Positions 26,289 to 30,164 of a stretch of 64,000 bases of DNA are shown one piece after another. The notes below the pieces were generated by a model. It did not search any database and had not been told where the DNA came from. It worked only from the letters and a program-made list of their open reading frames with translations. The stretch's first letter is position 1; each line of letters begins with the position of its first letter. This DNA comes from Streptomyces gardneri (GTDB lineage Bacteria > Actinomycetota > Actinomycetes > Streptomycetales > Streptomycetaceae). A program made the translations under genes and the position numbers. The stretch covers positions 372,001 to 436,000 of the forward strand of contig NZ_BJMN01000005.1 of the NCBI RefSeq assembly GCF_006539185.1, in the 5' to 3' direction.

Positions 26289-27680
26289 CTACGCGTCGCG
26301 GCGCAGCGGCGGTCCGGCCGGGGACTCGGCCACCGGCCCGAAGAGCACCGCCCGCGCCACCGCGGGGGCGAACAGCCCGGTCATCGGCGCGGTGAGGTGG
26401 AGAGCCTCCCGGAAGGCCGCCCCGACGACCGGGTCGCCCGCCGCCCGCTGCTGCACCCGGCCCATGTACCAGCCGACCGCCTTGTCCAGCGGTCCCGGCT
26501 TCGTCGTGTCCCCGACGGCGCCGGGCATCTTCTTGTCGGAGCCCGCCGAGATGTCCCAGGCGGGCTTCGAGGCGTCGAGGAGCGCGCGCTGCACCCGCTG
26601 GGTGGTCGGCGTCCGCTTCGGATCGGCGAGCGCACGGCGCAGGGCGAGGGCGCTGATCGCGGCGACCGCCATGCCCTGCCCGTAGATCGGGTTGAAGGCG
26701 CAGAGGGCGTCGCCGGTGGCGAGGAAGCCGGCCGGACGGCGGCCCGGACGGTCGTACCGGCGGCGGATGTTCGCGGTCTTCCGGAAGCCGTAGACCGGCG
26801 ACACCGGCTCGGCCGTCGCCAGCCATTCGCTGATCACCGGGTGGGGCATCCGCTTCGTGTACTCCTCGAAGGCCTCCTCCTCCGTCGGCGGCCGGTCGTC
26901 GCGCAGCCCCGACAGGGTCACGAGATGGTGCCCGTCACCGACGGGCAGCACCACGGCGCCGTACTGCTGGGCGGGGTTGGGCACGATGAAGTAGCCCATG
27001 GTGTCGCTGCCCAGGGCGCCGTCCGGTGCCCGGTAGACCCGGGTGCTGTACGCGAGACCCGTGTCGAGGGTGTCCTCGTGCGGGGCCTCGGCACCGATCG
27101 CCGCGAGCCAGTCCGGCGCCTTCGTGGACCGGCCGGAGGCGTCCACGACCAGGTCGGCCTCCAGGACGCGGGTCTCCTTCTCGGCGCCCGCGCCGCGCTC
27201 CCGGAGCCGTACGCCCCGGACGCGCGAGGAGTCACCGATCAGGCCGACCGTCTCGTGGCCCTCGACCAGCTCCACGCGGGGATCGGCGAACACCCGCTGC
27301 CGTACGAGCCATTCCAGCTGCGGGCGCGGACCCGCGTAGAAATGCAGGGTCGGGGGCGTCCGGTCGAACCACTTGCCGTTCTGCCACTGGACCATGTCCT
27401 CGGGCACGCCCACCTTGGGTGCGCCGAGCTCCCGCAGCTCGTCGGTGAACCCCGGGAGCAGCTCGTCGAACGCCTGCTGTCCGCCCGCGATCAGGACGTG
27501 GATGTGCCGCCCCTGCGGCACGCCCGGACGGGCCTCCGGGCCCTCCGGGAAGCGGTCGCGCTCGACGACCGTCACCTTCTCCGCGTGCTCCGCGAGGACC
27601 CGTGCGGCCAGCAGTCCAGCGAGACTTCCCCCGATGACCACCGCGTGACGTGTCGTGCGGCGCCCCAAGTCGTCGGCCAT
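26289..27680 (-). CDS. FAD-dependent monooxygenase
   Basis: 463 residues from ATG 27680 (GAAAGGGC upstream). The FAD/NAD(P)-binding start HAVVIGGSLAGLLAARVLAEHA, the DLVVDASGRSTKAPDWL strand and the late GDALCAFNPIYGQGMAVAAISA motif define a class A flavoprotein hydroxylase, close to the squalene-epoxidase/polyether-epoxidase branch. It should use NAD(P)H and O2 on an unknown, probably lipophilic substrate. It follows the metal-sensor gene by 23 bp on the same strand, with an inverted repeat in between; co-transcription is possible. Confidence 0.85.
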   Translation of the reverse strand: MADDLGRRTTRHAVVIGGSLAGLLAARVLAEHAEKVTVVERDRFPEGPEARPGVPQGRHIHVLIAGGQQAFDELLPGFTDELRELGAPKVGVPEDMVQWQNGKWFDRTPPTLHFYAGPRPQLEWLVRQRVFADPRVELVEGHETVGLIGDSSRVRGVRLRERGAGAEKETRVLEADLVVDASGRSTKAPDWLAAIGAEAPHEDTLDTGLAYSTRVYRAPDGALGSDTMGYFIVPNPAQQYGAVVLPVGDGHHLVTLSGLRDDRPPTEEEAFEEYTKRMPHPVISEWLATAEPVSPVYGFRKTANIRRRYDRPGRRPAGFLATGDALCAFNPIYGQGMAVAAISALALRRALADPKRTPTTQRVQRALLDASKPAWDISAGSDKKMPGAVGDTTKPGPLDKAVGWYMGRVQQRAAGDPVVGAAFREALHLTAPMTGLFAPAVARAVLFGPVAESPAGPPLRRDA

Positions 27681-27696
27681 GCCCGCCCTTTCGTTG

Positions 27697-27725
27697 CGTG
27701 GATTTACAACTGCCCAGTATCCACG
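27697..27725 (-). repeat. Inverted repeat at the arsR-monooxygenase junction
   Basis: CGTGGAT (27697-27703) and ATCCACG (27719-27725) flank a 15-nt loop that contains the end of the regulator gene. In RNA this stem-loop sits just ahead of the monooxygenase ribosome-binding site and could attenuate or protect the downstream message. Confidence 0.4.
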
Positions 27726-28081
27726 GAGGCGCGGGTCGCGTCGCGTGCCCCGAGACGCAGGTGCTCGATGTGGTAGACGGCTTCGTCGAGGAGCTGGGCG
27801 ACGTGGTTGTCGTACAGGCTGTACTCGATCCGGCGGCCCTGGCGGACTCCGCTGACCAGGCCGAGCGCGCGCAGCAGGCGGAGCTGGTGGGAGACGGCGG
27901 ACTGCTCCATGTCGACGGCGGCGGCGAGTTCGGTCACTCCGCAGGGGCCCTGCCGGAGCTTGGTCAGGATCATCAGCCGTGACGGGGTGGCGAGGGCCTG
28001 GAGGGTGGCGGCGATGGTCGCCGCGGACTCGGCGTCCAGGTGGGTTGCGGGGGTCGTCTCGCCGTTCACTCCGTGTCCCAT
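27704..28081 (-). CDS. ArsR/SmtB-family metal sensor, NmtR/CzrA-like (alpha-5 site)
   Basis: 125 residues from ATG 28081 (GATGAGCG upstream; a TTG further out overlaps the operator and is rejected). It has a standard winged helix (ATPSRLMILTKLRQG, VTELAAAVDMEQSAVSHQLRLLRALG). Helix 5 carries D91, H93, H104 and H107, exactly the D-x-H-x10-H-x2-H metal site of NmtR and CzrA, which sense Ni/Co or Zn/Co. It should release DNA on metal binding and derepress the divergent P1B-4 ATPase. The dyad at 28113 is its probable operator. Confidence 0.88.
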   Translation of the reverse strand: MGHGVNGETTPATHLDAESAATIAATLQALATPSRLMILTKLRQGPCGVTELAAAVDMEQSAVSHQLRLLRALGLVSGVRQGRRIEYSLYDNHVAQLLDEAVYHIEHLRLGARDATRASVDTGQL

Positions 28082-28112
28082 GCGCTCATCGTAGCCGCGC
28101 TTGTATGTCAAT

Positions 28113-28132
28113 ACGTGAAGACCTCTTCATGT
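28113..28132. promoter_or_regulatory. ArsR/SmtB-type operator between metal sensor and ATPase
   Basis: ACgTGAAGA-CC-TCTTCAtGT: a TGAAGA/TCTTCA dyad with 2-bp centre and matching AC/GT outer bases. TGAA-n6-TTCA is the core of SmtB/CzrA/NmtR operators. It lies 32 bp upstream of the sensor start, within the divergent promoter region. Confidence 0.75.
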
Positions 28133-28150
28133 GTTCGGGTATGGTGATGC

Positions 28151-28190
28151 CCCGCATGCCCCCGCATGCCCTCGCATGCCCTCGCATGCC
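28151..28190 (+). repeat. Four 10-bp tandem repeats, CYCGCATGCC
   Basis: Consecutive CCCGCATGCC, CCCGCATGCC, CTCGCATGCC, CTCGCATGCC units each hold a GCATGC palindrome. They lie in the untranslated leader of the metal-exporter gene, 19 bp after the ArsR-type operator. The period is about one helical turn. Confidence 0.85.
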
Positions 28191-28253
28191 TCCGATTCGC
28201 CCCACCCCGGATCGCCCGCCCCACCCCGCCACCCTCGAAAGAGGTGCTCGTCC

Positions 28254-30164
28254 ATGGCCCTCCCGGAGCTGGACACCCCCCAGGCCACGGCCCCCGCGCC
28301 GGCCCCCGCCCGAGCCGTCGGGCGCACCCCCGCCACCGCCCTCCCCGAGGTGCGCTGGGCCGCGCTCGCCGCCCTCGCCTTCCTCGTGGCCTTCCCCCTC
28401 GACCTGGCCGGCGCTCCCGGCTGGGCCTGGGGGCCGCTCTATGCGGTCTGCTACGCCGCCGGAGGCTGGGAGCCGGCGCTGGCCGGCCTCCGGGCGCTGC
28501 GCGAGCGGTCCCTCGACGTCGACCTGCTGATGGTGGTCGCCGCGCTCGGCGCCGCCGCCATCGGCCAGTACCTCGACGGCGGGCTCCTCATCGTGATCTT
28601 CGCCGTCTCCGGAGCCCTGGAGGCGCTGGCCACCCGGCGTACGGCCGACTCGGTACGCGGCCTCCTCGACCTCGCGCCCGCCACCGCCGTACGCCTCACG
28701 GGCGTGGGCGGGGGAGCGCGCGAGGAGACCGTCGAGGCCACCGCGCTCCGCCCCGGCGACACCGTGCTCGTACGGCCGGGGGAGCGCCTCCCCGCGGACG
28801 GCACCGTCCTCGGCGGCACGAGCGACGTGGACCGGGCGAGCATCACCGGCGAACCCCTCCCGGCCCCCGCCGCGCCCGGCGACGAGGTCTTCGCGGGCAG
28901 CCTCAACGGCACCGGCGCGCTGCGCGTCCGCGTGGACAAGGATCCGGGCGACTTCGTCGTCGCCCGGATCGTCGCCCTCGTCGAGGAGGCCGGCGCCACC
29001 AAGGCCCCCACCCAGCTCTTCGTCGAGAAGATCGAACAGCGCTACTCCGTCGGCGTCGTCGTCGCCACCCTCGCGCTCTTCGGCCTGCCCGTCGCCTTCG
29101 GCGCGGACCTCACCGAGGCCCTCCTGCGCGCGATGACCTTCATGATCGTCGCCTCGCCCTGCGCGGTCGTCCTCGCCACCATGCCCCCGCTGCTCTCCGC
29201 CATCGCCACCGCCGGGCGCCACGGAGTCCTCGTGAAGTCCGCCGTCGTCATGGAACGGCTCGGAGCGGTCGACCGGGTGGCGCTCGACAAGACGGGCACC
29301 CTCACCGAGGGCACGCCCCGGGTGACGGCCGTACGGGGAGAGGAGACCGCGCTCGCGCTCGCCGCCGCGGCCGAACTCCCCAGCGAACACCCGCTGGCCC
29401 GCGCCGTGGTCGCCGAGGCCCGTGCGCGAGGCCTGCGCCTGCCCGAGGCGACCGACTTCGCCGCCGAGCCGGGGCGGGGCGTACGAGCCGTGGTCGACGG
29501 CCATGAGGTACGGGTCCACCGGGCGTCCGGCACCCACGGCGACACCGCCGTCGAGGTCGTCGTCGACGGAGCCCCGGCCGCCGTACTGGAGTTCTCCGAC
29601 CGGCTCCGCGAGGCCGCCCCCGGCGCGGTCGCCGCCCTCGGCCGGCTCACCGGCACCGCCCCCACGCTGCTGACCGGCGACAACGCCGGCGCCGCCGCGA
29701 GGATCGCCGCGGAGACGGGCATCGACGACGTCCGCGCCGGCCTCCTCCCGCACGAGAAGGCGGAGGCGGTACGGGAGTGGGAGCGGGCGGGCGCGAAGGT
29801 CCTGCTCGTCGGCGACGGCGTCAACGACGCCCCGGCCCTCGCGGCCGCCCACGCGGGCGTCGCCATGGGCCGGGCAGGCTCCGACCTGGCCCTGGAGACC
29901 GCCGACGTGGTCGTCGTCCACGACGAACTCGGCGCGATCCCGGCCGTCGTGGCCCTCTCGCGCCGCGCCCGCCGTCTGGTCGTCCAGAACCTGGTGATCG
30001 CGGGCGTCTGCATCGGCGCCCTGGTCGTCTGGGACCTCGTCGGCCACCTGCCGCTGCCCCTGGGCGTCGCCGGCCACGAGGGCTCGACCGTCCTCGTGGG
30101 CCTCAACGGCCTGCGGCTGCTGCGGGAGGCGGCCTGGCGGCGAGCGGCAGGCGGTACGGCCTGA
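28254..30164 (+). CDS. P1B-4-type heavy-metal-exporting ATPase
   Basis: 636 residues from ATG 28254 (GAGGTG upstream). It lacks an N-terminal HMA domain. Catalytic features are: ITGEP actuator loop, S301-P302-C303 in TM4, D345KTGT phosphorylation site, GDGVNDAPAL hinge, and H608-E-G-S-T in the last TM region. SPC with HEGST defines the P1B-4 subgroup (Co2+, Ni2+, Zn2+, Fe2+ efflux; mycobacterial CtpD/CtpJ, CzcP). The NmtR-like sensor divergently encoded beside it and the shared operator make Ni/Co/Zn detoxification the likely role. The leader contains four 10-bp repeats. Confidence 0.92.
   Translation: MALPELDTPQATAPAPAPARAVGRTPATALPEVRWAALAALAFLVAFPLDLAGAPGWAWGPLYAVCYAAGGWEPALAGLRALRERSLDVDLLMVVAALGAAAIGQYLDGGLLIVIFAVSGALEALATRRTADSVRGLLDLAPATAVRLTGVGGGAREETVEATALRPGDTVLVRPGERLPADGTVLGGTSDVDRASITGEPLPAPAAPGDEVFAGSLNGTGALRVRVDKDPGDFVVARIVALVEEAGATKAPTQLFVEKIEQRYSVGVVVATLALFGLPVAFGADLTEALLRAMTFMIVASPCAVVLATMPPLLSAIATAGRHGVLVKSAVVMERLGAVDRVALDKTGTLTEGTPRVTAVRGEETALALAAAAELPSEHPLARAVVAEARARGLRLPEATDFAAEPGRGVRAVVDGHEVRVHRASGTHGDTAVEVVVDGAPAAVLEFSDRLREAAPGAVAALGRLTGTAPTLLTGDNAGAAARIAAETGIDDVRAGLLPHEKAEAVREWERAGAKVLLVGDGVNDAPALAAAHAGVAMGRAGSDLALETADVVVVHDELGAIPAVVALSRRARRLVVQNLVIAGVCIGALVVWDLVGHLPLPLGVAGHEGSTVLVGLNGLRLLREAAWRRAAGGTA

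Follow-up and report, generated by a model that had tools for sequence, protein, structure and literature searches.

The 64,000-nucleotide stretch of Streptomyces gardneri DNA analysed here (the window) belongs to a 9.03-Mb draft genome in 146 contigs. It holds a divergent gene pair, with starts at 28081 on the minus strand and 28254 on the plus strand, that encodes an NmtR-like repressor and an NmtA-like ATPase. A candidate operator, a candidate -10 element for each gene and an array of four tandem repeat units lie between the two starts (Table 1). DNA matches to positions 27700-28700 were found in all eight named genomes tried; seven of them (six Streptomyces and an Actinomadura) matched at E ≤3.4e-61, and S. 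hiroshimensis gave a weak match (2.5e-8). A gene for a FAD-dependent oxidoreductase (26289-27680, minus strand) starts 23 bp past the nmtR stop and is possibly co-transcribed with nmtR. A relative of this gene adjoins nmtR in at least 11 genomes, that of the window included.

Table 1. Positions of the genes and of the candidate regulatory features at the locus.
Feature	Position	Strand	Remark
nmtR-like ArsR/SmtB repressor	27704..28081	-	125 aa, ATG at 28081
nmtA-like P1B-4 metal-transporting ATPase (putative)	28254..30164	+	636 aa
Candidate -10 of nmtR, TACGAT	28088..28093	-	6 nt before nmtR ATG
Candidate NmtR operator, 26-bp site around dyad TGAAGA-CC-TCTTCA (28116-28129)	28110..28135	.	45.8 in site model
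Candidate -10 of pump gene, TATGGT	28140..28145	+	just downstream of operator
Four tandem CYCGCATGCC units	28151..28190	+	at the inferred start of transcription or directly past it

The repressor exceeded the cut-offs of the metalloregulator model NF033788 (85.9 bits, cut-off 55) and of PF01022 (54.3, cut-off 22), which places it in the ArsR/SmtB winged-helix family. Its best match in the PDB was the M. tuberculosis NmtR (2lkp, E 1.3e-45), and the other solved relatives were SmtB (next best, 5.8e-16), CzrA (2kjb, 6.9e-13) and Rv1994c (2jsc, 5.7e-12), which we take to be CmtR. The closest solved relative of the repressor is NmtR, not SmtB, CzrA or CmtR. The earlier note had named D91, H93, H104 and H107 as NmtR-type ligands; numbered from the ATG at 28081, all four residues are found at those positions, and G2 and H3 are present as well. 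The nickel ligands of NmtR listed in an excerpt of PMC7055735 are the N-terminal amine, His3, Asp91, His93, His104 and His107, and the full set is predicted from the sequence of the window repressor. All 47 distinct NmtR sequences, the window's included, have D91, H93, H104 and H107, and all 45 whose alignment extends that far have G2 and H3. The occurrence of nmtR has been reported in Streptomyces comparisons (PMC12672707, in part), and the excerpted account of Frankia places its NmtR-like proteins away from metal transporters (PMC4531530).

The ATPase scored 493.2 against TIGR01512 (cut-off 313.5) and 530.8 against TIGR01525 (cut-off 346.25). It carries SPC at residue 301, DKTGT at residue 345 and HEGST at residue 608. 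Pfam returned PF00122 and PF00702 alone at E ≤0.001, and a classical N-terminal heavy-metal-binding domain was not found at E up to 0.001. SPC and HEGxT are the membrane motifs named for PIB-4 in the excerpted text of PMC8880997. All 60 distinct ATPases contained SPC, and HEGST was seen in 16 of the 60, the alignments of the other 44 ending before or inside this motif. Among solved structures the zinc ATPase 4umv (E 3.5e-88) was barely ahead of 7qbz (E 3.7e-88), presumably the CoaT structure. SPC and HEGxT are common to the window pump and the CoaT-type P1B-4 ATPases, and no difference was found at the motif level. With SPC, HEGST and both TIGR scores above their cut-offs, the P1B-4 ATPase recognized in the earlier note was borne out; the window pump is predicted to be a P1B-4-type ATPase, with putative transport of Co, Ni or Zn.

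The proposed ArsR dyad, TGAAGA-CC-TCTTCA, is present exactly, with 10 bp between its end and TATGGT, and it is conserved in relatives. The exact pattern occurred in none of 300 shuffled windows, and with up to two mismatches it gave 2 matches in the window against 0.35 expected. Because the window contains 53 perfect 6-N2-6 inverted repeats when any sequence is allowed, such a dyad is common in itself, and its weight rests on conservation. TTCA-N10/11-TAnnnT was found in 62 of the 63 loci examined (some genomes contributing twice), with locus L031 as the exception; we take TAnnnT to be the -10 element. When promoters were selected for the right arm TTCA, every one of the 53 also had TGAA on the left, and 29 had the complete TGAAGA-N2-TCTTCA. 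A 26-bp operator model, built from the sites of 50 relatives and leaving out those of the window and of genomes G292 and G345, gave 45.8 bits at the window site and -5.1 at the next-best window position. A longer operator pattern (≤3 mismatches, both strands) matched the window site alone in the draft genome, so that the circuit looks self-contained. On the nmtR side, every one of 47 distinct upstream stretches, the window's included, has TAnnnT 4-8 nt ahead of the start, which suggests that the nmtR transcript is probably leaderless. The relatives examined have kept the predicted NmtR operator, the -10 element and the metal ligands. The coherent metal-efflux circuit claimed for this locus is, on the strength of NmtR homology, ligands, P1B-4 motifs and an operator with -10 in 53 distinct promoters, well founded as a prediction.

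In two other genomes of the genus, G110 (locus L053) and G287 (locus L061), the pump leader contains a second TGAAGA-NN-TCTTCA dyad, 48 bp past the first operator. The arms of the second dyads are perfect and measure 12 and 16 bp, and each dyad is a candidate second NmtR operator that could act as a roadblock.

The four CYCGCATGCC repeats described in the earlier note were recovered both by position and by Tandem Repeats Finder, which reported 28150-28194 with period 10, 4.5 copies and a score of 69. The units occupy 28151-28160, 28161-28170, 28171-28180 and 28181-28190, and consist of CCCGCATGCC twice and CTCGCATGCC twice. At period 10, 29 of 30 positions match over the four units; when 28130-28254 was shuffled 20,000 times with dinucleotides preserved, this value was never reached. 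Pure chance was ruled out by these shuffles, and the array is a true tandem duplication. Single units are not enriched in the window (16 matches with ≤1 mismatch, 21.4 expected). In 360 kb of the same contig there were 29 non-overlapping arrays scoring ≥69 (5.2 per 64 kb), ten with a period ≤20 and one with a period of 8-12, and the window holds four arrays, of periods 17-39, that score above the one at 28151-28190. Two hundred shuffled windows yielded 25 rows scoring ≥69 (best 104), or ∼0.13 per window, and the real window has five non-overlapping arrays. Arrays of this score are ordinary in the contig over all periods and less so at short period.

The distribution of the array was followed in related loci, drawn mainly from searches of 61 and 392 genomes. 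The nearest genome, G292 (94.6% DNA identity), has the same promoter followed by two CCCCGCATGG units and then looser GC-rich sequence; its units are CGCATGG only, with no GCATGC. In G345 (89.4%) and G330 (83.8%) the operator and -10 are intact, and the leaders, which are short, lack the array. The repeat-number comparison across strains that had been proposed was thereby made between species, with four units here, two altered units in G292 and none in G345 and G330. Since G292 also has CGCATG units at this place, the expansion extends beyond a single strain. Two CGCATG units behind the exact promoter occurred in 2 of 392 genus genomes, namely the window's own and G292, a count that applies to the exact promoter form and not to variant promoters. 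An element common to the genus was ruled out on this count. No closer relative with the array emerged from 199 genomes searched around G292. Among the relatives' stretches inspected, two or more GCATGC were present in the window's own genome alone, and loci L028 and L040 had one each. In locus L009 (G022) the pump leader is filled by a different loose repeat, CCGTGAAG/CCGTGATG, with a spacing of about 10-12 bp, which is perhaps another independent leader expansion.

These comparisons bear on the suggestion of the earlier note that the array is the site of a second regulator, in the form of four binding sites on one helix face at 10-bp spacing. The core of each unit, GCATGC, is palindromic and recurs about once per helical turn, and loosely similar units precede other genes in other genomes. 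However, G345 and G330, both close relatives, lack the array, and 390 of the 392 genus genomes do not have it behind the exact promoter; its units are altered in the nearest relative, no other place in the window's genome resembles it at ≤2 mismatches, it has no match to the NmtR site, and a two-unit pattern is no commoner than its reversed control, by inspection. An array serving a multi-site regulator would be conserved in orthologous promoters or recur in the genome, and neither was found. The site of a second regulator is therefore very improbable here. Accessory NmtR sites were ruled out by the scores of the NmtR model on the array, where the best full site reached -24.6, far below the 45.8 at the operator, and the best half-site reached -12.5, a score attained by 2.7% of window positions.

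Units of this kind were also sought more widely. The two-unit pattern, with 1-3 bases between units, gave 58 matches in 49 of 246 genus genomes, and its reversed control was at least as common, judged by inspection. In the other 245 genomes, overlapping matches numbered at most two at any single place, which makes four clean units in a row unusual. Nine short matches to the array at unrelated places in other genomes were inspected over their central 200 bases; five contained two to four CGCATG, two contained one and two none, and no NmtR or pump matches were found near them. The array was rejected as a dispersed element. A stricter two-unit pattern gave 48 stretches from many phyla in a broad genome-contig collection, against ∼30 predicted for a uniform base composition; the collection may omit records near the window's genome. 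Runs of CGCATG were seen shortly before the ATG of seemingly other genes in L070 (S. noursei), L111 (S. chattanoogensis), L143 (G223) and L147 (G313). A Phycisphaerales MAG (L076, from about 2594, and L110) has a long 10-bp array of a CYCGCATGCC-like unit that drifts from CGCATGCC to CGCACGCC.

The RNA of the array is predicted to form a strong nested hairpin (-18.5 kcal/mol, z -4.06; none of 200 shuffles as stable), and the region 28151-28280 as a whole had a folding z of -3.78. For comparison, 63 loci from 57 genomes (six genomes twice) were reduced to 53 leaders. The ten dropped were eight whose leader string was identical to that of another locus (for L017 and L114 this may reflect no more than an empty or very short string), together with L031 (no promoter match) and L030 (no start found). 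For L056, L061 and perhaps others, the automatically assigned start is doubtful. The median leader length was 39 nt, and three leaders appear to have essentially no length. With L011, L014 and L016 too short to be folded, the remaining 50 leaders had a mean folding z of +0.05 and a median of +0.25, with two at ≤-2 (those of the window and L053). A conserved structured leader was ruled out, as the 50 leaders average no more structure than shuffles, and the short, unstructured leaders of the relatives thus reveal no visible constraint on leader sequence. No Rfam matches were obtained in 27600-28700 at E up to 1.

The earlier note had also suggested a copy-number-variable tuner. In a form based on the hairpin, four self-complementary GCATGC units nested where the pump mRNA begins would alter the stability or translation of that mRNA, and a change in copy number would reset pump output. 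The array adjoins the inferred transcription start, and the window's genome and G292 differ in how many units they have and in the sequence of those units. One array of period 8-12 and comparable score was found in 360 kb of the contig. Phase-variable tandem repeats have been described in M. tuberculosis, a fellow actinomycete (PMC12817950, in part). On the other hand, a nested hairpin is the consequence of repeating the palindrome GCATGC; the units of G292 are no longer GCATGC, and its leader has no structure (z +1.87), and low z values are scarce among the leaders folded. A tuner is unlikely on this balance. The fuller proposal, that a fast-evolving, copy-number-variable 5' mRNA hairpin sets the output of a metal-released promoter, is less probable still; if true, the hairpin would let lineages retune metal tolerance with sensor and operator untouched. 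What stands of the tuner is that this spot varies between species, because G292 carries two altered units, while the tuning itself is weakly open.

A coding function for the units would require the pump to start upstream of 28254, at the in-frame GTG 28131 or at ATG 28176 in the third unit, so that the units encode a short N-terminal extension containing His and Cys. The frame is open from 28131, but this GTG lies upstream of the candidate -10 and therefore outside that transcript. In addition, the purine-rich, ribosome-site-like GAAAGAGGTG precedes ATG 28254, and several relatives have a MALPELD- or MASPVLD-like start at the place of 28254. Of the readings considered, a coded extension has the faintest chance of being right.

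We regard an NmtR-type Ni/Co efflux switch, accompanied by a lineage-specific array expansion without a conserved regulatory role, as the best explanation of the locus, with a probability of roughly 0.8. Apo-NmtR dimers would occupy the dyad, which separates the divergent promoters, and repress both of them. Binding of Ni(II) or Co(II) at G2, H3, D91, H93, H104 and H107 would release NmtR, upon which the P1B-4 ATPase would be produced and the metal exported. The 10-bp array is most simply explained by replication slippage at a tolerant place in the transcribed leader, as an apparently recent tandem expansion specific to the lineage; it is probably neutral and would affect expression little, if at all.

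The nickel-cobalt efflux system of Streptomyces coelicolor is reportedly an NmtR/NmtA pair. It represents Ni/Co efflux already described in the same genus as the window (Kim et al., 2015, Metallomics, cited in PMC11247825). The NmtR-NmtA system of M. tuberculosis (nmt operon; PDB 2lkp; PMC7055735, in part) resembles the window in that an ArsR/SmtB repressor controls a P-type efflux ATPase, a control that is predicted for the window, and both repressors have the N-terminal GHGV together with His3, Asp91, His93, His104 and His107. In contrast to the M. tuberculosis nmt system, the window leader has the 10-bp array; the two genes of the window pair are divergent. The NmtR-NmtA efflux circuit is already known, and the switch in the window is an ordinary further case of it.

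The locus thus offers a clear NmtR-pump pair with a predicted operator shared across the genus, and could serve as a model promoter in searches for further copies. A repeat may stand out beside a promoter without being regulatory, and a few close relatives sufficed to show that this array is dispensable in evolution.
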